DNA from: Astropecten irregularis
Taxonomy: Eukaryota; Echinodermata; Asteroidea; Paxillosida; Astropectinidae
Assembly: GCA_963971285.1 (NCBI GenBank)
Contig: OZ020251.1
Coordinates: 1,240,001-1,304,000, forward strand
Length of the DNA stretch: 64,000 nt
Direction of reading: 5' to 3'
In this document: piece after piece, positions 3,569 to 62,400 of the stretch
Numbering within the stretch: the first letter of the stretch is position 1
How the letters are laid out: every line of letters begins with the position of its first letter
Made by a program: the position numbers and the translations under genes
The notes under the pieces: generated by a model
Database searches by the model: none
What the model was told of the DNA's origin: nothing
The model's input: only the letters and a program-made list of their open reading frames with translations

Positions 3569-3684
3569 ATCGTTATGGCAACACAGTGCAGTTTTACTTG
3601 GTGTTTGCATCGTTATGGCAACACAGTGCAGTTTTACTTGGTGTTTGCATCGTTATGGCAACACAGTGCAGTTTTACTTGGTGT
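3569..3684 (-). repeat. Three tandem copies (about 40 bp) of the CSRP stop codon and adjacent 3'UTR
   Basis: The plus-strand segment cgttatggcaacacagtgca followed by gttttacttggtgttt occurs three times in a row. In the gene's sense each copy starts with the last codons (Asn-Thr-Lys-stop), so the true stop is the first of three, and the other two are 3'UTR duplicates. Confidence 0.85.
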
Positions 3685-3750
3685 TAACGAGAGCACCTGC
3701 TCCACCTCCGTAGCCGTATCCTTTAGGTCCAAAGTTCTTGCCGTAACAAG
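3674..3750 (-). CDS. CSRP: CSRP coding exon 5 (C-terminus and stop)
   Basis: Encodes [19 protein letters not shown] and ALVNTK then TAA. The acceptor is TGCGTAG|CT. The last codons and the following 3'UTR are tandemly repeated just downstream (3569-3680). Confidence 0.93.
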
Positions 3751-6700
3751 CTACGCAAAAGGAAAACACAAGAAATAATGAAGTTTTAATGAACCTTAAT
3801 TAGTAGAAGATAGTTATCATAAACTACAACAGTGTTGCGGGACTGTTGCCATAGTCCTCAAAGAACCATAGATATCTGCATTCTCATGTATGCATTTTCT
3901 TTTGCCATGGCCATTCCACCCACTGTCCAATTCTTGATATTATCTATCCATCCTGTCTTCCTCCGACCTGACCTGGCCTTCCACTTCACCTTCCACCGGC
4001 ATTTGGACTAAGCTATCTGGACGTCTTTTCCAATCAAAAACCTATCATATAATTCTCTACTACAATGTGGACAAAATTCTACTCACATTTGCAGTAAATC
4101 TCCTGATCTTTATCACACATAGTAGTGGAGTCCAGTTTCTTGTTGCATGACTTGCAATTGAAGCATGACTTGTGCCATGTCTGCAATTTTTGTATAAAAA
4201 TACAGAGTCAGTTAGGGTGGTTGGTTTATAGCTTGGTTGATTGGTTTATAGGTTGGTTGATTGGTTTATAGCTTGGTTGATTGGTTTATAGGTTGGTTGA
4301 TTGGTTTATAGGTTGGTTGATTGGTTTATAGGTTGGTTGATTGGTTTATAGGTTGGTTGATTGGTTTATAGGTTGGTTGATTGGTTTATAGGTTGGTTGA
4401 TTGGTTTATAGGTTGGTTGATTGGTTTATAGGTTGGTTGATTGGTTTATAGGTTGGTTGATTGGTTTATAGCTTGGTTGATTGGTTTATAGCTTGGTTGA
4501 TTTATAGGTTGATTGGTTGATAGGTTGGTTGGGTGAATAATAGGTTGGTTGGGTGGTTTATAGGTTGGTAACATAGGGCTGGGTTGCTCAGCTGGTAAGA
4601 GCGCTGGTACAGTATTTCGGAGGTCGCTGGTTTAATCCCTCTCCAGTCAAATTTTCTTTGTTAAATTTTGAATAACAAATTGATGTCTTATATCCTACCT
4701 GTCCAGCCCCGATGACTTTCTCTGCAGCGTAGACTGATTTGCCACATCGGGGGCATTTGTCAGCGCCACCAAACCTCTGGCCCCCAGACCCAGACCCAGC
4801 AGGACGATAGGCAGTCTCACTGGCTGGTTTACTCCTGAAATGACCACAGGACAATCAAACAACTTCAGATAGAGAAATATTTACCCCAAAAAAATATTTA
4901 CAAATACTGAGAATTAGCATATAATTATTTACTTTTTATATGAAGGTGTTTGAACTCTTTAGTCATTATTTCATTATTTCAGTTTATACCAATGATTCAT
5001 GTATAGTTTATTGGTTCAGGCCCATTACTATAACTTGTTTCAACATTACAATAAGGGGAATACAAATGACACAGTGCACCGTACCACGAAGAATCCATAA
5101 TTATGGTCTCTATAGAACTAGAAGGGGTATGTAGTCCACAGCAAGGCAGCAATGAATGCCTCCATCCCTATGGTGTGGATAAAACCAGTCCCTCACAATG
5201 AAACAAGACTGATGGTCTCTTCACAGTATAAATAGGACTGGAAGGTGTACCTAGTCCACAGCAAGGCAGCAATGAATGCCTATACCCTATGGTGTGAAGA
5301 AACCAGTCCCTCACACTGAAACAAGACTGATGGTCTCTTCACAGTATAAATAGGACTGGAAGGGGTACCTAGTCCACAGCAAGGCAGCAATGAATGCCTC
5401 CACCACTATGGTGTGGAGAAACCAGTCCCTCACACTGAAACAAGACTGATGGTCTCTTCACAGTATAAATAGGACTGGAAGGGGTACCTAGTCCACAGCA
5501 AGGCAGCAATGAATGCCTATACCCTATGGTGTGGAGAAACTAGTCCCTCACACTGAAACAAGACTGATGGTCTCTTCACAGTATAAATAGGACTGGAAGG
5601 GGTACCTAGTCCACAGCAAGGCAGCAATGAATGCCTATACCCTATGGTGTGGAGAAACTAGTCCCTCACACTGAAACAAGACCGATGGTCTCTTCACAGT
5701 ATAAATAGGACTGGAAGGGGTACCTAGTCCACAGCAAGGCAGCAATTAATGCCTATTCCCTATGGTGTGGAGAAACTAGTCCCTCACACTGAAACAAGAC
5801 TGATGGTCTCTTCACAGTATAAATAGGACTGGAAGGTGTACCTAGTCCACAGCAAGGCAGCAATGCCTCTACCCCTATGGTGTGGAGAAACCAGTCCCTC
5901 ACACTGAAACAAGACTGATGGTCTCTTCACAGTATAAATAGGACTGGAAGGTGTACCTAGTCCACAGCAAGGCAGCAATGAATGCCCCACCCCTATGGTG
6001 TGGAATAACAAGTCTCTCACACTGCAACAAGACTGATGGTCTCTTCACAGTATAAATAGGACTGGAAGGTGTACCTAGTCCACAGCAAGGCAGCAATGCC
6101 TCTACCCCTATGGTGTGGAGAAACCAGTCCCTCACACTGAAACAAGACTGATGGTCTCTTCACAGTATAAATAGGACTAGAAGTGGTACCTAGTCTACAG
6201 CAAGGCAGCAATGCCTCTACCCCTATGGTGTGGAGAAACCAGTCCCTCACACTGAAACAAGACTGATGGTCTCTTCACAGTATAAATAGGACTGGAAGGG
6301 GTACCTAGTCCACAGCAAGGCAGCAATGAATGCCTATACCCTATGGTGTGGAGAAACCAGTCCCTCACACTGAAACAAGACTCATGGTCTCTTCACAGTA
6401 TTAATAGGACTGGAAGGGGCACCTAGTCCACAGCAAGGCAGCAATGCCTCTACCCCTATGGTGTGGAGAAACCAGTCCCTCACACTGAAACAAGACTCAT
6501 GGTCTCTTCACAGTATAAATAGGACTGGAAGGGGTACCTAGTCCACAGCAAGGCAGCAATGAATGCCCCACCCCTATGGTGTGGAATAACAAGTCTCTCA
6601 TATTGAAACAAGACTGATGGTCTCTTCACAGTATTAATAGGACTGGAAGGGGCACCTAGTCCACAGCAAGGCAGCAATGCCTATACCCTATGGTGTGGAG

Positions 6701-9700
6701 AAACTAGTCCCTCACACTGAAACAAGACTCATGGTCTCTTCACAGTATAAATAGGACTGGAAGGTGTACCTAGTCCACAGCAAGGCAGCAATGAATGCCT
6801 ATACCCTATGGTGTGGAGAAACTAGTCCCTCACACTGAAACAAGACCGATGGTCTCTTCACAGTATAATTAGGACTGGAAGGGGTACCTAGTCCACAGCA
6901 AGGCAGCAATGCCTCTACCCCTATGGTGTGGAGAAACCAGTCCCTCACACTGAAACAAGACTGATGGTCTCTTCACAGTATTAATAGGACTGGAAGGGGT
7001 ACCTAGTCCACAGCAAGGCAGCAATGAATGCCTCCACCCCTATGGTGTGGAGAAACCAGTCCCTCACACTGAAACAAGACTGATGGTCTCTTCACAGTAT
7101 AAATAGGACTGGAAGGGGCACCTAGTCCACAGCAAGGCAGCAATGAATGCCCCACCCCTATGGTGTGGAGAAACCAGTCCCTCACACTGAAACAAGACTC
7201 ATGGTCTCTTCACAGTATAAATGGGACTGGAAGGGGCACCTAGTCCACAGCAAGGCAGCAATGAATGCCCCACCCCTATGGTGTGGAGAAACCAGTCCCT
7301 CACACTGAAACAAGACTGATGGTCTCTTCACAGTATAAATTGGACTGGAAGGGGTACCTAGTCCACAGCAAGGCAGCAATGAATGCCCCACCCCTATGGT
7401 GTGGAGAAACCAGTCCCTCACACTGAAACAAGACTCATGGTCTCTTCACAGTATGAATGGGACTGGAAGGGGCACCTAGTCCACAGCAAGGCAGCAATGA
7501 ATGCCCCACCCCTATGGTGTGGAGAAACTAGTCCCTCACACTGAAACAAGACTGATGGTCTCTTCACAGTATAAATAGGACTGGAAGGGGTACCTAGTCC
7601 ACAGCAAGGCAGCAATGAATGCCCCACCCCTATGGTGTGGAGAAACTAGTCCCTCACACTGAAACAAGACTCATGGTCTCTTCACAGTGCAGTATAAATT
7701 GTACCGTGCAGGATGCTTCTTCCTACACTGTTACTAATACATCCATGCCAACCTGGGGCCAATTTCATAAAACTGTTAAGCACAAAAATTTGCTAAGCAT
7801 GACATTTCTCTCTTAATAAAAACAGGATTAACAACCAAATTTCTGTGCGTTGTGTATCACTTGTGATTGTTCTTTGGCTATTGAACACTGACCATGAACA
7901 TTAAATGGAATTTTTATTGGTGGTTTGTTTGATTGAGCAAGACATTTTGTGCTACGCAATTTGTTTTGCTTAGCAGATCCATGAAATTGGCCCTAGGGGT
8001 TAATTTTACGGCCCTGTTTAGCATAAAAATTTGCTAAGAATGACAATTCTCTCTAAAAACAGGATTTACAACCAAATGTCCATGTGTTGTGTATCACTTG
8101 TGATTGTTCTTTGGCTGTTGTTCGCTAACCATGAATATCAAATAAATTTTCAATGGTGGTTTGTTTTATTGAGGCGAGACATTTTTGTGCTAAGCAAATT
8201 TTTGTGCTTAACAGTTTTATGAAATTGGCCCCTGATTTATTTATCTACAGTCTACACAGCATCACACACTTCCTGAGGTCTCTATTTCTTCCTCTGTGGG
8301 TTGCTGAGTTTGTTTTGTTTCCATTTCCTTGTCTGAGTTAATGTCTACTAGAATGACAATTAGCCTTGACCTGAGATTCCCGAGGCAATACAGAGACAGT
8401 GCATAACGGTTTGTAATTCATGCTGCTTAAAGGGATGGTACAGAATTGGTAAGACAAAATACACTTCATGATCACAGATTCACATAAAACTTACACAGTA
8501 TAATGGTGATGATAGGAGAAAACATCCCATGAAATGTTTTTCTCTGAAATGCCATATTCGTTGAGAAATATATGAAACTATTTTCCGATTGGAATAAATC
8601 GCTTCAAAGCGTTTTATTCATTCGTTGAAATGTGTACAGTTCTCTGTACACGGGTTTTCACTATTTTCTCGTGACCCAGATGGCTGATTGACCTCATACT
8701 TCTACAGGTTTGTAAGTTAAGGTATATGATGGATTACATAATGTACTTTCACTGTCAGAAACGGTTTTGTTGCAAAAACCAGTTCTGTACCATCCCTTTA
8801 ACATGCAGTGTTCTAGCCACCCCGGCCAGCACCAGTCGGGGACAGCTGGCACTCAGCCTTTCCGACCAGCACTAGAGATGAAAAATCATGTTACAACATA
8901 AATGTTGGGTTTTTTTTTCACTGAAAGAACTTAACATTTTAATTTGGAAACAAATTTGGAAAGATAAATTGACCAGATCTCCGATAACAAAACACAATAT
9001 TGCTGACACGCTCACGTACGAACTGACTTGCATTTAGCTACCATGTATTATCTCCTGGAGTCCGGCCGTGTGGGGCGAGATCTCCGCTTGCTACGCTTCA
9101 TAATAAGTAAATTTAGCCGGCACTCAAAATGGGCTAGCTATAACACTGTAAGCATGGTGAGTGTTATTCAGTGTTGTGGCTATTAGTTTGATGATACTGG
9201 AGCTAGGATGATAGGGCTTAGGGCGGTAAGTTTAGGGAGGGGCAGGGGTGTTAATGTGGAGTTTGTAGTGTTATTCAAACCATGGACTGAATAAAAAAGG
9301 GACAATAATTATGGTCTATGATTGGGAAAATGTCCATCATTGGAAAGTATGCACAAAACCAATGGAGCTGTTGCCCAAAAGTCCAAACTAAGAGGAACAA
9401 TGGGGTCCATGATTGCAGCCCTTAACATACATTATACTTGTGGGGGTGGGAGGGCTAGTTTAAGTTATATTATGGGCGTTTATGAAGGCTCCAGCTCAGG
9501 CTCCACCTTTGGCATCCATATGCTGAAAATATAGGTTGTGGTTTTTCATTAAAACTGAAGCTCTGTTTTCCTTTTCAAAGCAGAGAATCTACTTCAAAAC
9601 CGCAGCCAAAAGCCTCTATTTTGATACCTGTCATTTCAGAATGGATTCATGAAATGGTGCTGGAGTCTGAGACAGAGCCAGAGCCTCTGTTTCATAAACC

Positions 9701-11626
9701 CTAGATGTTGGACCAATATCACAGCCATACATATTCAATGGCTCCCTCAGTGTTCATAATTCCTAATCCACTCCCATAGCTATAGCCACAGCCAATAACA
9801 AAGCCATACATACCCAATGGCTCCCTCAGTATTCAGAATGCCTGCTCCACCACCGTAGCCATAGCCCTTTGGTCCAAAATTCTTGCCATGACAAGAGCCA
9901 CAGTACAGTTTCCCATCATGCTCCTTCAGGGTTGATGAGTCCAGCATTTTATTACAAGCAGCTTTCAATTTAAATTGAATGAAGAAAACAAGAATTTGTG
10001 AATACAAGAATTGGTAGCATACCGAAAGAGAAATTTTAACAGATTTACCTTTACAGGGTATAAAGATGGTCCTGGTACAAACATACTGTCAAAATGTGTC
10101 TGCCTGAAATGCTGTATTTATCCAGTAGAGAGCAAAAACAATTTTGATCTTTTAAAGACCCAAAATAATGGCGACAAGATCTTTAAAATACTGTTGCTGT
10201 TTTTCACTGTTTTCTCAAAAAGTGGGCACCGTATGGGACTGAAATTTTCACAGATGACTGTTACTGTATCTTCCTTGATATTTTTGCCCATGAATCTGCA
10301 TTTCTTTGACAAAAACCAATGCATGATGTTATCTTTTAAAGTAAAATATCTTCAGAAGCAATACAAAAACTTTGAGTGATAAACTGCTGTAAAGTTACTG
10401 CTTAGTTACTCTATAATACTCAGATTTAAGAAGACCTGGGGCCGATTTCATAAAGCTCTGCGACGCGTCGCAACTCGATTTGCGACAAGTTCTAGCTGCG
10501 ACGCGTCGCATCTATACGGTGAGTCCATATAGAGAAAGGATGCGTCTTAACTCTGCGACGCGTCGTAAGTTTTATGAAATCAGCTACCTGCTATGTAAAT
10601 GCTATGCACAGAATGGGCCAATCAGCTACCTGCTATGTAAATGCAACGTACAGAATGGGCCAATCAGCTACCTGCTATGTAAATGCTATGCACAGAATGG
10701 GCCAATCAGCTACCTGCTATGTAAATGCTAAGCACAGAATGGGCCAATTAAATCAGCTACCTGCTATGTAAATGCTATGCACAGAATGGGCCAATCAGCT
10801 ACCTGCTATGTAAATGCTATGCACAGAATGGGCCAATCAGCTACCTACTATGTAAATGCAACGTACAGAATGGGCCAATCAGCTACCTGCTATGTAAATG
10901 CTATGCACAGAATGGGCCAATCAGCTACCTGCTATGTAAATGCAACGTACAGAATGGGCCAATCTGCTACCTGCTATGTAAATGCAACGTACAGAATGGG
11001 CCAATCAGCTACCTTCTATGTAAATGCAACGTACAGAATGGGCCAATCAGCTACCTGCTATGTAAATGCTATGCACAGAATGGGCCAATCAGCTACCTGC
11101 TATGTAAATGCTATGCACAGAATGGGCCAATCTGCTACCTGCTATGTAAATGCTATGCACAGAATGGGCCAATCAGCTACCTGCTATGTAAATGCAACGT
11201 ACAGAACGGGCCAATCAGCTACCTGCCATGTAAATGCTATGCACAGAATGGACCAATCAGCTTACTGCTACCTGCTCTTGACTGGTAACTGAGTGCACTC
11301 TACTCAAATAAATAGCAAGTTAAATGTTAAACTGGTACTAATGAACAAAGATTATTGACAATTTGGAGCACAGCCAACCCAGGGCCGGATACCTCTGTTG
11401 GTAGCAGGCACAAACAGCATTCCAATAATTGCAATGAGGTTCGAATCCAACTCAAGTCAATTTTTCTTTCTTCACCTTTCAATGATAAATACAAATAGTG
11501 AGAGTTAAACTTACTGCACTTGGCACACATCTTGTGCCATTTCTGCCCAGCAGCCAGGAATTCTTCAGCCATGTAAACAGTCTTTCCACATAGTGGACAT
11601 TTTGCACCACCGCCAAATGTCGGCAT
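3674..11626 (-). CDS. CSRP: CSRP-type two-LIM-domain protein (muscle LIM / cysteine- and glycine-rich protein), complete
   Basis: Five coding exons join in phase: 11626-11515, 9961-9814, 4834-4699, 4180-4087, 3750-3674, giving 188 residues, close to the usual 190-195 of this family. The start [11 protein letters not shown] matches the family N-terminus. LIM1 runs from Cys10 (CPLC...[11 protein letters not shown]...YCGSC) and LIM2 from Cys114 (CPRC...[11 protein letters not shown]...YCKSC); both are followed by the family signature [16 protein letters not shown]. All zinc-binding Cys/His are present. These proteins are known as adaptors binding alpha-actinin and zyxin at Z-discs, actin cables and in nuclei; no enzymatic role is known. 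All donors and acceptors are GT-AG. A 5'UTR acceptor (TTACAG) lies at about 11649-11654, so at least one more non-coding exon lies upstream. The introns are unusually rich in tandem repeats. Confidence 0.93.
4087..4180 (-). CDS. CSRP: CSRP coding exon 4 (second half of LIM2)
   Basis: Encodes [20 protein letters not shown] and [11 protein letters not shown] plus one base. The acceptor is ATTGCAG|ACATGG and the donor AAAT|GTGAGT. Confidence 0.93.
4215..4565. repeat. 20-bp minisatellite
   Basis: About 15 near-perfect copies of GGTTTATAGGTTGGTTGATT in the CSRP intron between exons 3 and 4; a SINE abuts its right end. Confidence 0.9.
4570..4680 (+). mobile_element. tRNA-derived SINE, CTCCAGTCAA-tail family
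   Basis: tRNA-like head GGGTTGCTCAGCTGGTAAGA (A-box) with a diverged B-box GGTTTAATCC, then CTCCAGTCAAATTTTCTTTG and TTAAATTTTGAATAAC. Same layout as copies near 11.4, 36.8, 42.2, 42.4 and 46.4 kb. Confidence 0.75.
4699..4834 (-). CDS. CSRP: CSRP coding exon 3 (inter-LIM linker and first half of LIM2)
   Basis: Encodes [20 protein letters not shown] and then [19 protein letters not shown]. The acceptor is TTTCAG|G and the donor GACAG|GTAGGA. A tRNA-derived SINE begins about 20 bases beyond the donor. Confidence 0.92.
5098..7692. repeat. Large minisatellite, about 22 units of about 118 bp
   Basis: Units contain TATGGTGTGGAGAAACCAGT, ACACTGAAACAAGACTGATG, GGTCTCTTCACAGTATAAAT, AGGACTGGAAGGGGTACCTA and GTCCACAGCAAGGCAGCAAT. 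Length varies with a few bases at ATGAATGCC. It lies in the CSRP intron separating LIM1 from LIM2. Any protein read from it is a repeat artefact. Confidence 0.95.
7755..7993. mobile_element. Foldback MITE, GGGGCCAATTTCATAAAACT family (copy 1)
   Basis: Ends GGGGCCAATTTCATAAAACT and its near complement; subterminal AAGCACAAAAATTTGCTAAG. Confidence 0.8.
8000..8233. mobile_element. Foldback MITE, GGGGCCAATTTCATAAAACT family (copy 2)
   Basis: Directly follows copy 1 with the same interior (CAAATGTCCATGTGTTGTGT, GTGATTGTTCTTTGGCTGTT). The left end is degraded. Confidence 0.75.
8431..8797. mobile_element. TTAA-flanked MITE (Kolobok/piggyBac-like)
   Basis: Inverted ends AGGGATGGTACAGAATTGGT and ACCAGTTCTGTACCATCCCT, flanked directly by TTAA at 8427-8430 and 8798-8801. 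367 bp, non-coding. Confidence 0.8.
9484..9705. mobile_element. MITE with GGCTCC-rich ends (copy A)
   Basis: Core CATATGCTGAAAATATAGGT ... AAAACCGCAGCCAAAAGCCT ... GAATGGATTCATGAAATGG shared with copies near 23.8, 28.4, 28.7, 30.5, 46.4 and 61.9 kb. Confidence 0.75.
9814..9961 (-). CDS. CSRP: CSRP coding exon 2 (second half of LIM1, Gly-rich linker)
   Basis: Encodes [19 protein letters not shown], then [20 protein letters not shown] and the linker [11 protein letters not shown]. The acceptor is TTGAAAG|CT and the donor GG|GTATGT. A MITE copy starts only about 45 bases upstream of the acceptor. Confidence 0.92.
10008..10345. mobile_element. TTAA-type MITE, GTATGATATTACC-ended family (copy 1, left end missing)
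   Basis: Shares GGTAGCATACCGAAA, TTTTTCACTGTTTTCTCAAA, GGGCACCGTATGGGACTGA and TATCTTCCTTGATATTTTTG with copies at 21568-21935 and 35136-35381. Confidence 0.7.
10440..10584. mobile_element. Foldback MITE with GCGACGCGTCGC palindromes
   Basis: Ends GGGGCCGATTTCATAAAGCT and TTTTATGAAATC are inverted; the interior has several copies of TGCGACGCGTCGC. Outer bases match other foldback families here. Confidence 0.65.
10580..11265. repeat. 42-bp minisatellite, about 16 units
   Basis: Unit AATGGGCCAATCAGCTACCT + GCTATGTAAATGCTATGCAC + AG, with a second variant GCAACGTACAG in the middle. The length is a multiple of three, so one frame stays open over the array, giving a spurious 14-residue protein repeat. 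Confidence 0.93.
11340..11500 (+). mobile_element. tRNA-derived SINE, CTCCAGTCAA-tail family (diverged)
   Basis: ACAAAGATTATTGACAATTT head, A-box-like region at CCTCTGTTGGTAGC, B-box GAGGTTCGAATCCAA, tail TCAAGTCAATTTTTCTTTC. Ends a few bases from the CSRP exon 1 donor. Confidence 0.65.
11515..11626 (-). CDS. CSRP: CSRP coding exon 1 (start codon, first half of LIM1)
   Basis: Encodes [18 protein letters not shown] and on to WHKMCAKC. The donor reads TGCA|GTAAGT and leaves one base, which joins CT of the next exon to form Thr. The exon also carries about 22 bases of 5'UTR back to an acceptor near 11649. Confidence 0.93.
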
Positions 11627-11701
11627 ATTGACAAGAAATGATTCCTCCCTGTAATTATACAATGACATTAACAAAATGTATCAGATTGAACGATGATATT
11701 G

Positions 11702-13630: not shown

Positions 13631-13679
13631 ACAAATATTCTTCAACGTTGCCACAAAAAGTCAAAACAGTACAGGATTG

Positions 13680-14395: not shown

Positions 14396-14399
14396 TTCT

Positions 14400-22109: not shown

Positions 22110-23042
22110 TTAATTAGTGTTTTCTCTTACTGAGCTGGCTTCAGACGTAGGCCTAACCTTACCACAGAATATCTCGCGCAGTCCCTTGCGAAACTGACGG
22201 TACTTGAAGGCGTAGATGACAGGATTCAAGCAGGAATTGGTGGCTACCATTGCTACCGATATCAGATGATACCAGCTATTTAATACGATCGGATAGCCGA
22301 GGTTGTAAAGGAGAAAGACAAGCTGATTTGGGCTCCAGCAGATCATGAATGTGATGAATACGATCAAGAGGGTTTTGAAGGTGTTTCGTCTTGCTCGGTT
22401 TAGGGACTCCGCCATACCTGCCGCTTGGCCGACACCTGGACCCACCCTGGCGGCTCCTCTCTTCAGCTCCAGGCTAGTGTGAATATAGGCGAAGAGCATT
22501 ACTGCAACTGGTAATATGTACTGCATGAAGATAGACAAAACTCCTATTGTTTGCGATCCAATAATTGGAACGCATCTGCCTTTCTGAATGTCAAAGATGG
22601 TTATACCTTGAGCTGTGGACATGATAGCAATCATCCAGCACATGGCGATTGCTAAACCGACTTTGAGCCGAGGGTGACGGGAGAACGCTGCCTGGTACTT
22701 GAACGGAAAGACGATTGCGAAGTACCTCTCCAGGGTGACAGCGAGTAGATTGAACGTTGAAGTGACGAAGAAGGTGAACTTCACCCTATGAGACAACCAG
22801 ATGCGGCAAAGGAACCAGCCAGCTGCATTGTCCAGTAGCGGGTAAGGCTCTGGGAGTTCACTATGCAGAATAATCACAGTGGAGCCCAGGAAATCTACCA
22901 CAGCCTGGTGGAAGATGAAGACATTGGTACGAGTCTGCATGGCAGGGACTCTCCAGATGACCAGACATACCAGACTATTGCCCAAAATGCCTACAATACC
23001 AACGATGGCATTGAAAATGCGCAAAGCGAGTATCTCTTCCAT
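22110..23042 (-). CDS. Class A (rhodopsin-like) G-protein-coupled receptor, single exon, 310 aa
   Basis: Seven hydrophobic segments with class A marks: TM1 GILGN, TM2 HQAVVDFLG with the conserved Asp, TM3 Cys in LCRIW and ERY (instead of DRY) in LERYFAIVFPF, an extracellular-loop-2 Cys (KGRCVPI), TM6 FMICWSPNQ, TM7 NSCLNPVIYAF followed by the helix-8 segment KYRQFRKGL. A plasma-membrane receptor; the ligand cannot be told. It belongs with the large lineage-expanded neuropeptide/orphan-type receptors of echinoderms and amphioxus (inference). The Met before EEILALRIFN was chosen because it places a short N-terminus directly before TM1; an upstream in-frame Met (23300) would add 86 residues of non-family sequence. 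The short N-terminus has no glycosylation site and no signal peptide. Confidence 0.88.
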   Translation of the reverse strand: MEEILALRIFNAIVGIVGILGNSLVCLVIWRVPAMQTRTNVFIFHQAVVDFLGSTVIILHSELPEPYPLLDNAAGWFLCRIWLSHRVKFTFFVTSTFNLLAVTLERYFAIVFPFKYQAAFSRHPRLKVGLAIAMCWMIAIMSTAQGITIFDIQKGRCVPIIGSQTIGVLSIFMQYILPVAVMLFAYIHTSLELKRGAARVGPGVGQAAGMAESLNRARRNTFKTLLIVFITFMICWSPNQLVFLLYNLGYPIVLNSWYHLISVAMVATNSCLNPVIYAFKYRQFRKGLREIFCGKVRPTSEASSVRENTN

Positions 23043-23770
23043 GATTTTTTGGAAGATGACAAACCAGCAAATCAACTTGCAAACCAAACAAAGTTGAAGA
23101 ATCACAGCGTCATTGATCAGATTTTGGTTTAATATCGAAAGTCGTAGAAGTCTTCTCTCTGTCGCCAATTCAATGCCTCTTGGTCTCGATTGCAAACGAT
23201 ATTTAAGGACAATCGAGCAATTAACTTTAACAGGGAGCAATGGAGGAAAGTAAAACATACAAGAAAGAAACTTCCATCGCAAGATATGCTTAAGTGCCAC
23301 ATTTGGGCGGATATCCGGTCAATGCAAAAAATTGCCATCCTTCAAACCACTTTACGTTCATTTTGAGAAACGTTTCTGAAGTTGATACGTGCTTAACTCT
23401 ACAAAACGTCGATAAATGGGCTGAAAAATGAAAGACGTGTGTTGCTATAGCAACCTGCCCAAAATGCATTAGATAGAGCCGAGCAAATAGGAATATATCT
23501 CATTGAACCACTTAAAATAAGTTTAATTCCCATTGAAGGACAACAAAGAAGTCCAAACTCCGTAGAGTTTACGTCTGGGCAACTGCCATTGGCTGGAATG
23601 AGTGGCAGTGACGTGACGACAGAGTGGAACAAAAATACGCATGTGCAAGACCGTTACCATAGATATACCTCATGATAAGGCTTATACGCCAGCATCCATG
23701 CACAGAGAGCCTATATTCAATGGTTTATATTCATTCCCCACTTGAGCTGGCTGCGTGGCTCGCCGTTGGT
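23043..23770. other. Upstream region of the GPCR, no gene recognised
   Basis: Probably holds the GPCR 5'UTR and promoter; no clear TATA box identified. Confidence 0.35.
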
Positions 23771-25025: not shown

Positions 25026-25254
25026 GTAAGTAAAAATCCATCTGGCAAACATTTCAGACTGTAAGGTGACATATCACAGATCCATGATGTGGTCGTACGT
25101 CTTCTTGGAAAAGTTGAGAATAAAACTTATTCTTCAACAAAATGATAGCTTAAAATTTACGTCATGATGGTGATTCTTGTCTCATGGCGATTTTCCACTT
25201 CATGATCACGTGATGCCACGCCACATCTTTTTCATCGTTCTCCTTTCTTCACAG

Positions 25255-25818
25255 GTATGCGTGAAACAAAAGGGGGAGGCATCCTTGGTCTTACCGGTGA
25301 TACTGTTATTGTGGTTCTCATCAGCATTCTGTCTTGCACAGACAGAACCAGATTCTGCAACCTCAGAGAAAGGATCTTGCTGTGCTACCAATGCTTGCTA
25401 TCAAGGTCAGGTAGGCGCCCCTGGGCATCCAGGTATCCCTGGGGTACCAGGAATCAACGGTATGCAAGAAGCGAATGGCCCTAAAGGTGACCCTGGACTT
25501 GGTTCCCCTGGACCGAAAGGTGACCATGGAGTTCAAGGGTCAAATGGAGATCCAGGCAATCCAGGAATCCGTGGGTTACCTGGAAAGATCGGCCCCTCGG
25601 GAATAATCGGAGAAAGTGGACAAAAGGGAAGGAAAGGTGAACCTGGGGAAACTACTCATTACACCCCAACAGCGCCCTCTATCGGTTTCAACGCTTTCCT
25701 GACACAAAGTGTCCAGGTTTCTCTGGGCAATGTAGTCGTCTTTGATGACGTCACGACTAACATTGGAAATGGGTACGATTCGCAGTCAGGCATGTTTACA
25801 TGCTCGATTCCTGTGCCC
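25255..25818 (+). CDS. C1q gene exon 2, signal peptide, collagen-like stretch and start of C1q domain
   Basis: Open from the acceptor to the hairpin; Gly-X-Y triplets such as GPKGDPGLGSPGPKGDHG and ending FTCSIPV. Confidence 0.8.
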
Positions 25819-25916
25819 GATTTCACGAAACTTTACGCAGTTGCGTAAGTCCACTTACGCCATGAAATTTGTGGCGTAAGTGGACTTACGCAACTGCGTA
25901 AAGTTTCGTGAAATCG
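25818..25916. mobile_element. 99-bp perfect foldback insertion inside the C1q coding sequence
   Basis: Arms 25818-25862 and 25872-25916 are exact reverse complements over 45 bases, with a 9-base loop TGAAATTTG. Ends CGATTTCACGAAACTTTACG match the outer bases of other foldback families here. No clear target duplication. Confidence 0.9.
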
Positions 25917-26261
25917 ACTGCTGGACTGTATTTCTTTACTTGTTCGGTGATAATATCTGATTCGGGCAAACGGTATCCGGTTTTCGCCAAGCTGAAAAAG
26001 AACGATGAGTTTATTGCTACGGTTTATAATGGCATCGGAATTAGAGGCACCGACGTAAGCAATTCGGTTGTTGTTATGCTGGAGACGGGAGACCGAGTTT
26101 GGCTTGAAGCTGTTGATACAAGAGATAGACATCGGCCTGTGCCTACCGGATATCCGTTTTGGCGTAGGCCTACCCAAAATCCCGTCAGCATTAGTGTATC
26201 CACTGGTGATAATAAACAGACATCTTTTGCTGGGTTTCTGATAAGCAGCATTGGCGTCTAA
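25917..26261 (+). CDS. C1q gene, remaining C1q domain after the insertion
   Basis: Reads TAGLYFFTCSVIISDSGKRY, YNGIGIRG, VVVMLETGDRVWLEAV and FAGFLISS, the beta-strand pattern of C1q domains, to a TAA stop. Confidence 0.8.
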   Translation, partial: TAGLYFFTCSVIISDSGKRYPVFAKLKKNDEFIATVYNGIGIRGTDVSNSVVVMLETGDRVWLEAVDTRDRHRPVPTGYPFWRRPTQNPVSISVSTGDNKQTSFAGFLISSIGV

Positions 26262-30163: not shown

Positions 30164-30456
30164 CTACACGAGATCAGAAGACTCACCATTTTGCCGAGGC
30201 ACAGCACCATTAGGTGCAAAGCTCTCCCTCCTCCCAACCCCTGCATGACCAGACGGCATAAGGCTTGCTCGTTTACCAATCCGTCGTTGCTGTGAAGGAG
30301 ACAATCCTCCTGACGTCCTGTGAGGAGATGCAGGTGATCTAGCTCTAGTAGGACTCTCAGTCACTTCATCGGTGAAGTACACGGATATCTGTGTCTTCTC
30401 ACCAATTGCTGATGTAGCCATTCTCACACTGCCATTGGCTGTCACAACGCCAGATA
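30164..30456 (-). CDS. Shaw/KCNC: Kv channel exon 3 (C-terminal tail and stop)
   Basis: Acceptor TTCTACCTCAG|TA completes the split codon in phase. Reads SGVVTANGSVRMATSAIGEK, YFTDEVTESPTRARSPASPH, GLSPSQQRRIGKRASLMPSG to GESSDLV and TAG. Rich in likely phosphorylation sites; ends DLV, which resembles a class III PDZ ligand (inference). Assigned to the channel by strand, phase and being the next coding-like segment. Confidence 0.7.
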
Positions 30457-48400: not shown

Positions 48401-50068
48401 AATTATATCAGAGTAAAGTGATTCCTTAATTGTTATATCTGCTGGGTTTTAATGAAAATTATATACCGTCTGAAAGAAGGAAATAATGCAAAGCTATCTC
48501 GTATTTTGTCAATGTTTGATAGGGATTTATGTTAGGGGACTCAAAAAAGAAAATTACATAAATATTCACGATTTATCCTCCAAATAAGATTTTGAGCAGG
48601 CATTGTGCTTCACAGTCTGACAATGAATTCCTTAGCGTTTTGCAGTCACTTATACGTGGCTTCAATTTCTATGTAACCATGGAAACCAGTATCAATAAAG
48701 AATATTTATCCCGCTGTTGACTGTGTTATGCATATCGCATTACTACAAGTATACTGCGCACTCACCGTATCCGCTTACGCTAACACGTTACAATTGGATC
48801 TGGGGGAAAAAGATCATGCCTCCTACACACCCCTCCCCAAAGGCCACGCCCCCATGCCACATTTTGTCTATGTTTTACTTGTTTGGCCTAATTTAAACCG
48901 CTCTTTTGAGCCCAGGGACCGATTTCAAGATGCACTATAAGATTGATCTTAAACCGTGAATCAATCTTAATTGCTAAGCAAAGTGTGACGTCAAAATATA
49001 AACTACTATGGTAACAGTGACATTTCAAAGTTAAGATTAATCTTAGCGTTCCGTGAAATCGACCATCCAACCGTAAATTATTATTATTATTATTATTTGT
49101 TTCAGGTAATGAAACCAATGATTCGTCAAAAGCGCTCTAGGCAATGTAGCTCGAAAGCCGGATGAAACCTTTTTATGGAAAGATGATGAGAAGAAGATAC
49201 AGTTTTAGAGGTGGGAGGAAAAACCCCAGTGTAATCTGGGTAAAACCCACGGAATCAGGTAGGGACTGAAAACCCAATCCACTTGTGGACCGAGCCGGAC
49301 TCGAACCCGGGCCGCAAGAGGTGAAAGGCGAGGAAAGAACCGCTACGCCAACCTGACTCCCAATCAACCCCTCCCCTTATAACTCAAGTTAGATGCTTCA
49401 TCAACTGATGGATGTCTTACCTTAGCCGCTCGTGATGAATAAGGCTCATCCACCATGGCCCATACCCTTGGCTGATATCTCTTATACCAGCTTTTCTTAG
49501 CCGTCTTGTACTCCTCTTCGATACCGAAGATTCTAGCAACATCTTCTTCCTCTTCACTGTCACTCTTGTCAATGGGTCCATTAAGCTTAGCTAGAGTCTC
49601 CTGTGCATCTCTGTGCTCTGTGTGGTAAGACCAACAACAAGCTTCAATTTGTTTCTCGTCAATCCCCCAGAATTGCAGCTCTTCTTCGAAGGCGGGGCCG
49701 CAGACATCCCGAGGGGCGTGAAGCTTCCCAATCCGGTAGTAATTCAAGACGGAATCGAACATCCTCGGATGTCTGTCGAAGAAGAATTCCCCGGTACTTG
49801 GGTCGAAATCTGTGCTGTTTGTGGCGGTAGACTGGGCCAACCAGGCCAGTCTTGTATCGGGGATGTTCTTGAGGGTTGATTTATAGGTTTCATGTCTCAC
49901 ACCACCAACGTTAATCCGGATCTTGTTGTTCTGAGTTGATTGTCCAGCTCTGAGAGATTGAAGATGTTCACTGGCTAATCTCTCAGTTCCTTCCCCCTCT
50001 GGGCCTCCATCATGTTCCCCTTTGCTGCGTTCCATGGGAACACTCAGTCGAGGTAACATGGACCTCAC
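30164..50068 (-). CDS. Shaw/KCNC: Shaw-type (Kv3) voltage-gated potassium channel
   Basis: Exons 50068-49421, 37923-37023 and 30456-30164 join in phase to 613 residues. T1 domain from residue 50 (IRINVGGVRHETY) carries the zinc site H117-x5-C123-x20-CC144-145 of non-Shaker channels. S1 starts at 217 (SLLFVVLSITTFCLET). S4 is at 331-347 with LRIVRIFRIFKLAR, few positive charges as in Drosophila Shaw. Pore TTVGYGD at 411-417. S6 PIP (443-445) where most channels have PVP. After S6, THAQASQKLPKKRKR matches Shaw. Exon 3 is a Ser/Pro/Arg-rich tail. It forms tetrameric plasma-membrane K+ channels; Shaw channels set resting potential and fast repolarisation. A strong donor (ATG|GTGAGT at 30186) allows an alternative longer tail. 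The two introns are 11.5 and 6.6 kb. Confidence 0.92.
30506..30755. mobile_element. MITE with GGCTCC-rich ends (copy E)
   Basis: Left GGGCTCTTTTCCAAACCTTG and (GGCTCC)n; right CAGAGGTTTGGGAAAGGGCC; shared core. Begins about 50 bases upstream of the Kv exon 3 acceptor. Confidence 0.8.
30763..30890. mobile_element. Short MITE, TGCGTTCGTTTAGC ends
   Basis: Inverted ends ATGCGTTCGTTTAGCTT and AGGCTAAACGAACGCA; GC-rich interior. Confidence 0.6.
31210..33105. mobile_element. 1.9-kb TTAA-flanked element with long inverted arms and GC-rich interior
   Basis: Ends AGCCCAACTAAAA (31210) and TTTTAGTTGGGCT (to 33105), flanked by TTAA at 31206-31209 and 33106-33109. Inner arms include AATGACGTCATTTCGGGAC and complement near 32885. 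The interior (31.7-32.4 kb) is GC-rich. It contains an open frame of 83 codons (31731-31979; HLKELERLHGYRDVPRSACI) and an ATG followed by a donor-like CCG|GTGAGT near 32190. TTAA duplication fits Kolobok or piggyBac. No transposase recognised. Confidence 0.65.
33110..34780. other. AT-rich intronic sequence, nothing recognised
   Basis: No coding segment or repeat family noticed in this part of Kv intron 2. Confidence 0.4.
34790..35010. other. GC-rich island with several open frames, possible exon
   Basis: All three plus frames and one minus frame are open over 40-70 codons. One plus frame is Gly/Pro-rich (RHGGGNGQMFQFPPRGFSPG). A minus-strand acceptor CCCCCAG near 35005 could feed an alternative Kv exon. 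No family recognised. Confidence 0.2.
35136..35381. mobile_element. TTAA-type MITE (copy 3, internally deleted)
   Basis: AGGTACTATCATACTTTGGT to CCAAAGTATGATATTACCT followed by TTAA; same interior as copies at 10008 and 21568 but shorter. Confidence 0.75.
35390..36735. other. Intronic sequence, nothing recognised
   Basis: No features recognised. Confidence 0.4.
36738..36895 (+). mobile_element. tRNA-derived SINE, CTCCAGTCAA-tail family
   Basis: Head GATAATTGACTATTGGGGTC, A-box GGATGGTTCAGTTGGTAG, B-box GGTTCGAATCC, then CACTCCAGTCAATTTTTTTT and TTAAATTTTCAATGAC. Lies 130 bases from the Kv exon 2 donor. Confidence 0.82.
37023..37923 (-). CDS. Shaw/KCNC: Kv channel exon 2 (S1 to S6 and proximal tail)
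   Basis: Acceptor TCTCCCCAG|CTG and donor ACAG|GTAAGA. 300 codons plus one base; holds all six membrane segments, the voltage sensor and the GYGD filter. Confidence 0.95.
38211..38452. mobile_element. Foldback MITE, GGGGCCAATTTCATAAAACT family (copy 4, best ends)
   Basis: Starts GGGGCCAATTTCATAAAACT and ends with its complement TTTTATGAAATTGGCCCC; 242 bp. Flanked on both sides by poly-C tracts (38110, 38543). Confidence 0.85.
38630..39380. other. Intronic sequence with SINE fragment at left
   Basis: A diverged SINE-like fragment (GGATTCAGACCGGCGACCTC and CTTCAGTCAATTTCCTTTGG) at 38660-38750; nothing else recognised. Confidence 0.4.
39383..39768. mobile_element. Foldback MITE, AAAGGCGCCTTTCC ends
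   Basis: TTAA|AGGCGCCTTTCCATATACGC at left; GCATATTATGGGAAGGCACC|TTTA at right; inner ATCCGCTGCGT and ACGCAGTGGAT are also inverted. Confidence 0.7.
39770..41360. other. Intronic sequence, nothing recognised
   Basis: A CpG-rich patch at 41215-41300 (several GCGCGC) could be regulatory; no coding segments. Confidence 0.35.
41362..41550. mobile_element. Retroelement fragment with GATCCTGCTGGGATCGAAACG motif, inverted pair
   Basis: Contains GCTGCAAACTGCTCATCAAC and, in both orientations, the hairpin preceding GAAACGTC. Shares sequence with 42990, 45870, 51358 and 52515 copies; possibly Penelope-like ends. Confidence 0.5.
42165..42300 (-). mobile_element. tRNA-derived SINE (head-to-head pair, minus copy)
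   Basis: Minus strand: A-box GATAGCTCAGTTGGTAGAGC, GCGGTATTCAGGAGGTCGCC, B-box-like GGTTTGACTCC, CGCTCCAGTCAATTTCTCTT. Confidence 0.85.
42345..42525 (+). mobile_element. tRNA-derived SINE (head-to-head pair, plus copy)
   Basis: GTAATTGACTATTGGGGTCA head, GACTGGGTAGCTCAGTTGGT, B-box CGGTTCGAATCCCG, CTCCAGTCAATTTCTCTTTG. The tRNA-like region closes an acceptor stem (GACTGG/CCAGTC) but the anticodon arm is malformed, so it is not a tRNA gene. Confidence 0.87.
42990..43125 (-). mobile_element. Retroelement fragment, GATCCTGCTAGGATCGAAACG family
   Basis: Plus strand AACTGCTGCAAACTGTTCAT ... GACGCGTTTCGATCCTAGCA; matches 51358 and 52515 copies. Confidence 0.55.
43232..43615. repeat. 96-bp minisatellite, four units
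   Basis: Units GCTACGGCTAGGTCTATCGT ... CCAATGGAGCGAAGACCTAG ... ATTCGGATGCAGCCAGA. 96 is a multiple of three, leaving both strands open (spurious 180- and 108-codon frames). Confidence 0.92.
43620..45005. other. Intronic sequence, nothing recognised
   Basis: AT-rich with T- and C-runs near 43795-43880; no coding segments. Confidence 0.4.
45011..45149. mobile_element. Foldback MITE, CGATCGATCGTAACTCGAGT family (copy 1)
   Basis: Ends GGGGTTGATTTCACGAAGCC and GTTTGGTGAAATCGACCC; palindromic ACGATCGATCGT and GTAACTCGAGTTAC inside. Confidence 0.8.
45870..45990. mobile_element. Retroelement fragment, CTGCTGCAAACTGC family
   Basis: AATTAACTGCTGCAACTGCT ... GAGTTAGGAGGGACTGACGC; the GATCC hairpin is lost and an inverted GACCGAAACGCGTC remains. 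Confidence 0.5.
46385..46440 (-). mobile_element. SINE fragment (minus), truncated by a MITE
   Basis: GAAGCGGGATTCGAACTGGC and GACCTCCTGAATACCGTACC are the complement of the SINE B-box region; it stops abruptly at the next element. Confidence 0.75.
46442..46605. mobile_element. MITE with GGCTCC-rich ends (copy F, left half missing)
   Basis: Begins inside the core (AAGCTGAAGCTCTGATTTC), runs through CCGAACCGCAACAAAAAGTC to GAGCCAGAGCCGAGTTTTG. Confidence 0.7.
46707..46857. mobile_element. Foldback MITE, CGATCGATCGTAACTCGAGT family (copy 2)
   Basis: GGGGTTGATTTCACGAAGCC to GGCGAAATCGACCCC. Confidence 0.8.
47174..47406. mobile_element. Diverged foldback MITE, GGGCCCAATTTCATAGAGC type
   Basis: Ends GGGCCCAATTTCATAGAGC and GCTCTATGAAATTGGCCCC; interior CCAACCAAATTGTCATGTG related to the GGGGCCAATTTC family. 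Confidence 0.7.
47400..47592. mobile_element. MITE, GGGCCTTTACGAAA family (copy 2)
   Basis: Abuts the preceding element; GACTTGAAGCTAGGCTTGGG to AAGCCTAATTTCGTAAAGGC; same as 2150-2340. Confidence 0.6.
47600..48905. other. Intronic sequence, nothing recognised
   Basis: No features recognised. Confidence 0.4.
48912..49066. mobile_element. Foldback MITE, TTAATCTTAA core family (copy 2)
   Basis: GACCGATTTCAAGATGC at left, TCCGTGAAATCGACC at right; inner AAGATTGATCTTAA and TTAAGATTAATCTTAG. Same type as the nested MITE at 26418. Confidence 0.7.
49078..49365 (-). mobile_element. tRNA-derived SINE of a second family, (AAT)n tail
   Basis: Minus strand: GTTGGCGTAGCGGTTCTTTC (A-box region), GGGTTCGAGTCCGG (B-box), then GTGGGTTTTACCCAG and GGGGTTTTTCCTCCCACCTC, ending in an (AAT)n tail at 49078-49097. 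Starts 56 bases from the Kv exon 1 donor. Confidence 0.8.
49421..50068 (-). CDS. Shaw/KCNC: Kv channel exon 1 (N-terminus and T1 tetramerisation domain)
   Basis: 216 codons, MRSMLPRLSV to DEPYSSRAAK, then donor AAG|GTAAGA. A second Met at residue 12 (MERSKG) is an alternative start. An acidic linker SDSEEEEDVARIFG precedes S1. Confidence 0.92.
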
Positions 50069-56288: not shown

Positions 56289-56712
56289 CCTAGGATCGAT
56301 TTCACCAAACTCATCGTAAGTTACTATTATTGTAGGACTGATGATGCATTGCAGCCCTACATTGGTTATCCTTTGTAACTCGAGTTACGATCGATCGTAG
56401 GGCTTGGTGAAATCAACCCCAGCGCAGGGTCTATTTCACGAAATTTATCGTAAGTTACTATTATTGTAGGACTTATGATGCATTGCAGCCCTACATAGGA
56501 TTCAATGTGTTATCCTTTGTAACTCGAGTTACGATCGATTGTCAGGCTTGGTGAAATCAACCCCAGCGCAGGGTCTATTTCACCAAACTCATTGTAACTT
56601 ATTATCAATCGTAGGACTTGTGAAGCTTTACAGCTCTATAAAGGATACGATGGGTTATCCTTTGTAACTCGAGTTACGATCGATCGTAAGGCTTCGTGAA
56701 ATCACCTCCTGG
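56289..56712. mobile_element. Three tandem copies of the CGATCGATCG foldback MITE (reverse orientation)
   Basis: Copies at about 56289-56420, 56428-56571 and 56574-56711, each from GATTTCACCAAACTCATCGT-like to TTACGATCGATCGTAGGGCT-like sequence. Copies 1-2 and 2-3 share the linker CCAGCGCAGGGTCTATTTCA. Confidence 0.82.
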
Positions 56713-56714
56713 AT

Positions 56715-59700: not shown

Positions 59701-60530
59701 GACTACAATGCAAAAGCCGTCTTCAGTGGAAGATATGCAACCTACCACTGGGGTCTTATAATATGAGCTAACAAGTACACACAATACTTGTACATAATCC
59801 TCATATAATCCTTTCACAAACAAGTCATTATTGTGCTCAAACTTTTTTAGAGAGCCCTCCTCCCCCCTGTAAACCACAGATTTGATCGAATCAAAACCTC
59901 CCCACCAAAAACATAAAACTGCTTAAAAAATGATAACGCTACATTTTTTAGTTTGGCACAAATTTATTCACTCTCTTCAATTTGCCTGCACAAAATGATC
60001 AGTCTAAACCAAATGAGGAGAAAAAGTTATTGATTTTGGTCGGACATCTTTGTGGAAATGCAGCAGATTTATTTGGCACATGCTCCAATTTCTATTCTTG
60101 TCAAAGGAACCATCCCAAATCCACACAGTGTGGTATTATGAAGGACACAGGACTGTAGAGCCCAGGCACTGTAGCTTTATATGGGGCTTGATGGCCCAAC
60201 TTGGTCCAAGTCCAATGAAATCTGAAGTACAGACACAGCCCGCTGTGATTGTAGTGGATTCAGGAAGGTTCCTATCCAAAACACTCGAGGAGTGTAGCGT
60301 TAAATTCCATGCATCATTTTTTACTAATTGCAAGTATGGCAACCAATGATATGTTGCCATGGTCACAAAGTAAAGCGCCCTCTATAGGTTGCACAAGTAA
60401 AGGATAGATATCCAGCACGCTGGAATATCTTCTACCATCCTGTGCATGCATGTTTGAATGTATAATGCAGGTCTAAAAAAGAAAAAGAAAAGAAACAAAA
60501 CCCTGATGAGACTTGAATTTCCTTGCCATG
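56715..60530. other. Long AT-rich stretch without genes
   Basis: Candidate distal SoxD 3'UTR or downstream regulatory region. Octamer-like ATGCAAAT at 57840-57870, and GAATATTCAT repeats at 59470-59660. No coding exon recognised. Confidence 0.4.
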
Positions 60531-60532
60531 AA

Positions 60533-60882
60533 TCAATACTCGGTAGGTGATTCCAGCGACATTGGTGACGATACCTGACCCAGTGAATACGCTCCTTCCA
60601 CCATGGACAAACCCTGGGGTGACATGGGACCGATGTTTGGCGCCCTCACCATATGCTCACCATCCCGTGTGTAGAAGACATGCCTGACCTCCTGCCTCTT
60701 AGCTCTCATCAAGGCCTTATACTCCCCGATCTTCAGCTTCTTACCGTCGATGATGCAGGTGCGTTTGGGGCGGGGCTTGTACTTGTAGTCTGGATATTTC
60801 TCCAGGTGAGCCTTACTGAGGCGAGCTTGTTCCTCGTAGTAGGGCTGCTTCTCTGCATTGGACATGGTCTTCCACTTAGAAC
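60533..60882 (-). CDS. SoxD: SoxD last exon (rest of HMG box, C-terminus, stop)
   Basis: Acceptor ATCATAAAG|GT. Reads [40 protein letters not shown], then the SoxD block, and ends [14 protein letters not shown] with TGA. Confidence 0.95.
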
Positions 60883-62400
60883 CTTTATGATGATAATAGA
60901 CAGAAGAAAACAATTACAGGTGAATTCACAGGTGACAGGTGTAGTCACAGGTGACAGGTGTAGTCACAGGTGACAGGTGTAGTCACAGGTGACAGGTGTA
61001 GTCACAGGTGACAGGTGTAGTCACATGTGTAGTGACAGGTGACAGGTGAATTCACAGGTGACAGGTGTAGTCACAGGTGACAGGTGTAGTCACATGTGAC
61101 CTTGCAGGACTGATGACAGAATGAAGAATAAAAGATGATTTACAGGTAGACACAAGGGATAGGTGGCCAGAGTGCGGGCAAAATGAAATCAAGACTGCCA
61201 AAACAACAGCTGGATGTAATCAACTCATTAGCTGACCGTCTGACAACTAACTGACCAGTCAACCAAGTGACCATGGGGGAGGGAGCTTCTGTTTGCCTGG
61301 CAGACTGGGTTACTGGCCAACCCAAATGAGAGCAACAAGGTGGCATCTGGGGGAGTAAGTTAACCAGCCAGTCAACCAGAAAGCCAAACAGTCTGCCAGC
61401 CAACAAGCCAACCAGCCAGCCAAGCAAGCAGCAACCAGCCAACCGGCCAACCAATCAACCATCCAGACAGTCTGCAAACCAACCGACCAACCGTCCAATC
61501 AGCCTGCCAGCCTGCCAACCAGCCAGCCTGCCAACCAGCCTGCCAAGCAAGCAGCAAACTGGGGAGCTAGCCAACCAGCCAATCAACAATCTAACCAGCC
61601 AGTCTGCCAACCAGCCAACCAACCATCCAGAGAGCCAATCAATATCTCAATCAATCAGGGAGCCAGCTAACCATATACAGCTGCCTGATTCACACTCACC
61701 TAATATTTTGCTGATGTTAGAGTTGTGCATATCTGGATGTCTAGCTAGAATCTTCCTTCGTTCCTCCTTGGCCCAAACCATGAATGCATTCATTGGCCTC
61801 TTGATGTGTGGTCTGTTAGCATCAAGCTTCCTGGTATCACGGTACATGCGTGCAATTGTTGCTACAAAAAGCAAATGGAAATCACAAATTAGTCAACTGA
61901 AAATGTTTCCTATATAGAGAGTTTACGAAACAGAGGCTCAGGCTCAAGCTCAGGTTCAGGTTCAGGCTCAGGCTCGGGCTCGGGCTCGGGCTCGGGCTCC
62001 AGCTTTGTCAACCATATGCTGAAAATATAGGTTGCGGTTTTTCAATGAAGCTGAAGCTCTGTTTTCTTTTTCAAACCAGAGAATCAACTTCAGAACTGCA
62101 GCCAAAAGCCTCTATTTTGAAACCCTTTATTTCAGAATGAATTCATGAATCGGAGCTGGAGCATCCGTTTCGTAAACTCCCATAGACAGAAATGGCAGCA
62201 AATTGCTAGGCTTATTCCAATAGCATTTTTCATAGCTCTGAACATCTCTGAGGTAAGCTCCCAAACTCCCAAATAAGTACCAAAGTTGAAGACTTACAGT
62301 TGTCGACTTGAACGTCCATCTTGGGTCGTCCATCCTCATCAGTCAGGTCAATGACGATGGATTTCTTCATACTCTGCAACATATGCAAAGGGTACGTGTT
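60533..62400 (-). CDS. SoxD: SoxD (Sox5/6/13) transcription factor, last three coding exons
   Basis: Exons 62400-62298, 61861-61700 and 60882-60533 join in phase. The HMG box begins [19 protein letters not shown] in the middle exon, crosses the intron at SKILG|SKWK and ends at [13 protein letters not shown]. After it come [20 protein letters not shown], the block specific to SoxD proteins. SoxD factors bind ACAAT-type sites and act as architectural cofactors (known in cartilage, neural and muscle fate in vertebrates). The tail is short (ends SLESPTEY) compared with vertebrate SoxD, which have an acidic C-terminus. The leucine zipper and earlier exons lie beyond 62400, probably beyond the window. 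Confidence 0.95.
60917..61105. repeat. 19-bp minisatellite
   Basis: About nine copies of TCACAGGTGACAGGTGTAG in the last SoxD intron, starting about 35 bases from the acceptor. Confidence 0.9.
61360..61640. repeat. Degenerate CCAACCAGCCAG repeat
   Basis: Irregular repeats of CCAGCC, CTGCCAACCAGC and similar in the SoxD intron; gives spurious Trp/Leu/Ala-rich frames on the minus strand. Confidence 0.8.
61700..61861 (-). CDS. SoxD: SoxD exon with first part of the HMG box
   Basis: Acceptor CTTTTTGTAG|CA, donor TTAG|GTGAGT. Reads [17 protein letters not shown] then the HMG box to NSNISKIL plus one base. Confidence 0.95.
61918..62185. mobile_element. MITE with GGCTC-rich ends (copy G)
   Basis: GTTTACGAAACAGAGGCTCA then (GGCTCA/GGCTCG)n; core GAACTGCAGCCAAAAGCCTC; right GGAGCATCCGTTTCGTAAAC. 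In the SoxD intron. Confidence 0.8.
62298..62400 (-). CDS. SoxD: SoxD exon before the HMG box
   Basis: Acceptor CCTTTCAG|AAC, donor AACT|GTAAGT. Reads [34 protein letters not shown] plus one base, which with CA of the next exon makes Ser. Confidence 0.8.

Follow-up and report, generated by a model that had tools for sequence, protein, structure and literature searches.

Linkage of ZDHHC13/17, CSRP, Shaw/Kv3 and SoxD genes on one strand of a starfish chromosome, probably a remnant of an ancestral chromosome

Genes of the SoxD, KCNC (Shaw/Kv3) and CSRP families occur together in the human genome, where we take SOX6, KCNC1 and CSRP3 to lie on 11p15 and CSRP1 and SOX13 on 1q32, with KCNC3 as another copy in the same set of duplicated regions (paralogon). 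Here we describe these families in a 64,000-nucleotide stretch of the starfish Astropecten irregularis (contig OZ020251.1, hereafter C15, positions 1240001-1304000; the window), which lies on chromosome 8 (21.66 Mb) and carries a CSRP gene, a Shaw/Kv3 potassium channel gene and a SoxD gene; ZDHHC13/17 lies just outside.

A four-fold paralogon on human chromosomes 1, 11, 12 and 19, arranged around the MRF genes and derived from genome duplication, has been described (PMC7530620), so the duplication part of the history considered here is already known. The vertebrate copies of the present families appear in published gene tables. A listing of human chromosome 12 gives TPH2 ... KCNC2 ... KRR1, then PHLDA1, NAP1L1, BBS10, OSBPL8, ZDHHC17, CSRP2, E2F7, NAV3 and SYT1; that is, ZDHHC17 stands directly before CSRP2 in 12q21, and KCNC2 falls in the preceding interval (PMC4754774). 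For mouse chromosome 7, a table confined to brain-expressed genes gives the order Myod1, Kcnc1, ..., Tph1, ..., Zdhhc13, Csrp3, E2f8 and Nav2, with Kcnc1 at 46045921-46088128, Zdhhc13 at 48438751-48477188 and Csrp3 at 48480146-48497781 (PMC11329421); by this table the gap between Zdhhc13 and Csrp3 is 3.0 kb, and Kcnc1 lies 2.35 Mb from Zdhhc13 and about 2.4 Mb from Csrp3. Around one 1-Mb window of chicken chromosome 5 the genes listed are SOX6, C11orf58, PLEKHA7, RPS13, PIK3C2A, NUCB2, KCNJ11, ABCC8, USH1C, FTL, MYOD1, KCNC1 and SERGEF; 10 of these stand between SOX6 and KCNC1 (PMC8130382). On the starfish side, the passages of PMC11310086 on sea stars, which do not name Astropecten, report that in the species examined the bilaterian linkage groups persist and that a single fusion between chromosomes has taken place since the eleutherozoan ancestor. 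A description of the block itself was not found in the literature searched (titles and the starts of abstracts, and passages of PMC1978502, PMC6292497, PMC3914808, PMC4754774, PMC7530620, PMC5524304 and PMC10927551).

The four linked genes

On the minus strand of the window the genes run in the order CSRP, Shaw/Kv3 and SoxD (the HMG part of the last). The next recognised host gene beyond CSRP, 14.7 kb off on the same strand, is an ankyrin-DHHC gene of the HIP14 type, and the four-gene order on one strand is thus ZDHHC13/17, CSRP, Shaw and SoxD, with CSRP and not ZDHHC on the Shaw side. The block spans about 85 kb from the DHHC exon (C15:1217347) to the HMG box (C15:1301861), or about 106 kb if extended to the last SoxD-like upstream frame (C15:1323194). 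The families, their order, strand and spacing are all read directly from the assembly. The relative order of SoxD, KCNC and CSRP agrees between starfish and vertebrates and ZDHHC adjoins CSRP, while the rest of the arrangement is loose. We consider it probable that the block survives from an ancestral chromosome, linked before the echinoderm/vertebrate split and copied in the vertebrate duplications. It is best read as an old inherited linkage and not as a new genetic system, with nothing in it acting as a system.

The genome searched comprised 475.7 Mb in 168 contigs, of which C15 has 21,656,159 bases and C16 21,457,805 bases; the published assembly has 475.80 Mb in 22 chromosomes, including chromosome 8 of 21.66 Mb and chromosome 9 of 21.46 Mb, and a mitochondrion of 16.34 kb (PMC11480709). 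Neither the window nor the eight 10-kb flanking stretches contained runs of N. Families were tested by bit scores against sequences of solved structures, together with Pfam and NCBIfam; LIM and HMG matches fell under the Pfam cut-off when exons were searched one by one, and the joined proteins were used as the family test. The preliminary description of the window, made from its letters, had placed CSRP, Shaw/KCNC and SoxD on one strand in that order, and the spliced exons and scores given below bear out both the order and the family names.

The CSRP-family gene (window 3674..11626, minus strand) has a complete coding sequence in five exons (11626-11515, 9961-9814, 4834-4699, 4180-4087 and 3750-3674) with GT/AG splice sites and a stop codon ending at 3674. 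Its product of 188 amino acids (aa) contains two Pfam LIM stretches in a LIM-Gly-LIM-Gly arrangement, that is, the family hallmark of two LIM domains with a glycine-rich stretch after each, in about 190 aa. The top match was CRP1 (1b8t), at 221 bits over residues 1-187, and the second LIM domain showed 69-70% identity with CRP1/CRP2. Judged from its sequence, the gene surely belongs to the CSRP family; a one-to-one orthology with CSRP1-3 would lean on the ZDHHC neighbour. Elsewhere in the genome, weaker LIM matches with 29-36% identity were found on C12, C24 and C11. A 118-base satellite of 22 copies at 93% match occupies window positions 5112-7688, within a CSRP intron.

The Shaw/Kv3 gene is represented on the minus strand by a first coding exon with the T1 domain (window 49421..50059; BTB_2, 104 bits) and an exon covering S1-S6, the pore signature TTVGYGD and the start of the C-terminus (window 37023..37923; Ion_trans, 149 bits), for which splice sites were found; the two exons join in phase on translation. 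With the T1 exon, Kv3.1 ranked first at 200 bits and the Shaw T1 structure scored 159, the nearest non-Shaw match being Kv2.1 at 95; with the transmembrane exon, Kv3.1 again ranked first (261 bits), ahead of Shaker (202), Kv2.1 (189) and Kv4 (176). The lead over the next non-Shaw family, about 105 bits for T1 and 59 bits for S1-S6, places the gene in Kv3. Its S6 hinge reads LPIPVIV, that is PIP and not PVP. PVP is the usual Kv3 hinge without being a defining feature, and PIP is the Kv2 form; we take the hinge here as a local substitution because both domain tests put the gene in Kv3. A candidate last exon is the frame at window 30164-30628, which 11 acceptors keep open and the start of which resembles a repeat found elsewhere in the flanks; it had no Pfam or NCBIfam match.

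Searching the genome with the Shaw transmembrane exon returned 8 places: the gene itself, matches with 42% (C22) and 44% (C15) identity over 198-263 residues, and weaker or short ones; no second Shaw gene was found by this search. A Kv1 gene, a 613-aa open frame at C15:1742 kb, lies 464 kb from Shaw on the same chromosome, and its scores are clearly those of Kv1 (Kv1.2 and Kv1.3, 636 bits vs 280 for Kv3.1, 250 for Kv2.1 and 248 for Kv4). The Rfam model RF00485, 'potassium channel RNA editing signal', matched window 37222-37335 (minus strand, 64.7 bits) in the Shaw pore exon. As a functional hairpin this candidate was rejected (z of +0.60, with 145 of 200 shuffled sequences folding at least as well), and the model also matched both other Kv loci scanned, those of Kv1 and of the channel on C22. 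Given these further matches and the lack of unusual folding, the match reflects coding similarity.

The SoxD gene includes a last exon with the second half of the HMG box, a C-terminal extension and the stop codon (window 60533..60882) and an exon with the first half of the box (61700..61861), both on the minus strand and both supported by the match of the joined box; an upstream exon in phase with the latter (62298..62400, minus strand) was assigned solely from where it lies and from its frame. With its two exon-encoded halves joined, the HMG box matched SOX-5 at 154 bits, the next sequence reaching 111, and is thereby of SoxD type; the genome search listed 26 HMG matches, not sorted by subfamily. 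Two SoxD-like frames, not mentioned in the preliminary description, lie outside the window on the same strand at C15:1321212-1322165 and C15:1322736-1323194. An upstream frame on this strand is leucine- and glutamine-rich and coiled-coil-like, lies 19 kb from the HMG exon and is putatively spliced to the HMG exons; the upstream frames had no Pfam or NCBIfam match. In the 20 kb past the last of them, from C15:1324001, no further gene was recognised by eye.

In the ZDHHC13/17 neighbour, the first ankyrin exon had ZDHHC17 as its top solved match (85 bits, best alignment 70.5 bits) and a further ankyrin exon reached 172 bits against HIP14/ZDHHC17 in a single stretch. The DHHC exon (C15:1217347-1217472), on the minus strand like CSRP, gives scores of up to 60 bits with DHHC palmitoyltransferases and lies 8.5 kb past the last listed ankyrin exon on the same strand. 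By these matches the ankyrin and DHHC exons belong to the ZDHHC13/17 (HIP14) family and would form one gene, predicted as a single transcript. The frame at C15:1215623-1215907, taken for a further ZDHHC exon, had no Pfam match. Between CSRP and ZDHHC13/17 stands an uninterrupted frame of 1144 aa (C15:1232785-1236216, minus strand) with a Spin/Ssty domain at its C-terminus and, near its start, GDVESNPGP, which we take to be a 2A-type motif; it is probably a mobile element or a derivative of one.

Age of the linkage and competing explanations

The addition of a fourth member, ZDHHC13/17, and the presence of Kv1 elsewhere on C15 strengthen the case for ancestral linkage of ZDHHC, CSRP, KCNC and SoxD, which we regard as well supported. 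The idea in the preliminary description of one ancestral block copied in the vertebrate duplications stands as the best reading, with these two genes added to it. A HIP14-type ZDHHC gene, CSRP, Shaw/Kv3 and SoxD would have been linked before echinoderms and vertebrates parted, with Kv1 further off. The starfish, a member of a slowly rearranging class, would have retained all four on one strand within the span given above. The vertebrate segment would have been copied by the genome duplications; rearrangement, and the intermingling of genes from one or more further ancestral chromosomes, would have loosened its copies. Retention in the starfish would by default be put down to slow rearrangement and not to a common control element. 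The age, the duplication history and this cause are matters of interpretation.

Chance expectations were calculated with assumed totals of 20,000 genes for human and 22,000 for the starfish, 25-40 genes per human window and a paralogue factor of 1.3. With these assumed totals and full shuffling, 0.35-0.89 triplets are expected in a genome, and 0.002-0.008 blocks of four genes; the triplet alone is therefore weak evidence genome-wide. For gene order random only within the chromosome, we modelled a chromosome of 1000 genes with 10-40 eligible neighbours, which gives 0.6-9.6 triplets and 0.02-1.3 four-gene blocks. Taken together, the figures support linkage by common descent well, and its tightness is suggestive only.

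Several observations weigh against the inherited block, beginning with these within-chromosome expectations. The age of the linkage is judged from one starfish, with vertebrate tables as the comparison. This genome has two further CSRP-family loci, at C15:6.23 Mb and C14:19.95 Mb (three in all), and in the first LIM domain the window gene is 52% identical to that of CRP1, against 57% for the gene at C15:6.23 Mb and 65% for that on C14. For the further ankyrin exon, HIP14 ranked only eighth by summed score, after designed and ankyrin repeat proteins, because many repeats of the higher-ranked proteins add up. Finally, other families of the vertebrate region lie elsewhere in the starfish. In genome-wide searches run exon by exon, in which only the best candidates were scored and an exon may have been missed, both MRF matches and all 28 aromatic hydroxylase matches fell on C16, as did the sole close pair, expected of E2F7/8, among five E2F domain matches (the others on C23, C9 and C27). 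The four inward rectifier matches were all on C11, and the seven LDH/MDH matches, in which the enzymes were not told apart, were on C8 (4), C10 (2) and C48 (1). None of these five probed families (MRF, aromatic hydroxylases, E2F7/8, inward rectifiers and LDH) thus had a match on C15. These positions, too, are direct observations.

The mapping of the entire human 11p15 neighbourhood to C15 was accordingly rejected. A PI3K_C2 probe gave six matches, on C29 (3), C21 (2) and C15 at 13.48 Mb (1, weak); the last had no PI3-kinase among its solved-structure matches, and the probe was kept out of the family count. Binomial values of 0.037, from a count of seven in which Kv1 and ZDHHC were scored as hits, and of 4e-5 were set aside, since neither gene was a blind probe. 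The two MRF matches are 65 kb apart (C16:19280396-19346036), with the E2F domain pair 0.17 Mb on (C16:19516731-19518371); a clustered echinoderm MRF pair has been described in PMC7530620. Since MRF, aromatic hydroxylases and E2F7/8 are on another starfish chromosome than the block, the results suggest that two or more ancestral chromosomes contributed to the well-known vertebrate region; chromosome fission in the starfish lineage would fit too. The block, compact here and with its members dispersed in vertebrates, offers an anchor for working out the chromosome from which human 11p15, 12q21 and 1q32 descend.

Among the alternatives, we regard as unlikely, yet well short of negligible, that conservation acted only at the level of the chromosome: the four genes would have shared one ancestral chromosome, and their closeness would come from shuffling within it. 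The keeping of ancestral linkage groups reported for sea stars (PMC11310086) agrees with this, as do the within-chromosome expectations and the presence of a second CSRP-family locus and the Kv1 gene farther away on C15. Nevertheless, ZDHHC13/17 and CSRP stand next to each other both in the starfish and in two of the vertebrate copies, which is adjacency and not loose linkage. A more ambitious history appears doubtful to us, namely that a compact ZDHHC13/17-CSRP-Shaw-SoxD block in the echinoderm/chordate ancestor was held by cis-regulatory constraint for more than 500 million years in sea stars and was opened in vertebrates when its chromosome merged and mixed with the carrier of MRF, aromatic hydroxylases and E2F7/8. 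Shared regulation as such, raised in the preliminary description as a possible reason for retention, by which distant control elements for SoxD or the channel gene, seated in neighbouring genes, would hold the block, seems very improbable. Long developmental-regulator genes often hold bystander genes, and SoxD, itself a regulator of development, spans 19 kb from the upstream frame to the HMG exon; in the amniote tables, however, SOX6 and KCNC1 are parted by the 10 genes listed in chicken, and Kcnc1 and Csrp3 by the roughly 2.4 Mb seen in mouse, so tight linkage is not needed there, which speaks against a general regulatory need. Pure coincidence, with the genes unlinked in the common ancestor and joined separately in starfish and vertebrates, would fit the expectation for the triplet alone under full shuffling but is scarcely credible given that for the four-gene block and the Kv1 gene on the same chromosome.

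Other features of the window and the assembly

The preliminary description also passed over two genes between CSRP and Shaw. One is a single-exon rhodopsin-type G-protein-coupled receptor (window 22110..23318, minus strand; Pfam 7tm_1, 112 bits), the nearest solved relatives of which are opioid and galanin receptors at about 80-82 bits, scores that do not decide its subfamily; it is outside the conserved block. The other is a collagen-C1q gene on the plus strand (window 25174..26261), in which Pfam Collagen and C1q matches fall in two neighbouring open frames separated by an intron or a frame break. Three near-identical tRNA-Thr(GGT)-like sequences, found on both strands (window 36777-36849, 42199-42271 and 42404-42477), likely belong to a tRNA-derived short repeat.

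In the mitochondrial contig (C168, 16,335 bases), COX1 contains 10 internal TGA codons and yields the expected protein with translation table 9, that is, the echinoderm code; AAA occupies sites at which asparagine is conserved. A COX1 frame without stops occurs at C131:32162-33484, on a 103-kb contig that may be bacterial, and another TGA-bearing COX1 copy, on C25, may be a nuclear mitochondrial insert.

Comparison with known systems

The preliminary description had likened the gene order to that of human 11p15. The relative order agrees, but the tightness does not, as the chicken interval between SOX6 and KCNC1 and the 2.35 Mb between mouse Kcnc1 and Zdhhc13 show; the ZDHHC side also differs, CSRP being on the Shaw side in the starfish, and the five other families probed are absent from the C15 matches. 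With the paralogon on human chromosomes 1, 11, 12 and 19 the block would share a one-to-four history, the same human chromosomes bearing the SOX6/KCNC1/CSRP3, KCNC2/CSRP2, CSRP1/SOX13 and KCNC3 copies. It differs in that the main text of PMC7530620 does not name KCNC, CSRP or SOX6, and in that the starfish MRF matches are on C16, apart from the block. The bilaterian and eleutherozoan ancestral linkage groups, as presented in PMC11310086, show whole-chromosome conservation with rare fusions in sea stars, and the block would represent a local segment within one of them; those groups are, however, defined by chromosome membership and not by gene order. A further counterpart is the mammalian ZDHHC13/17-CSRP pair: ZDHHC lies between KCNC and CSRP in the mouse and human lists, whereas in the starfish it is on the CSRP side away from Shaw, but the two genes are neighbours in the starfish, on mouse chromosome 7 and in the human 12q21 list alike.

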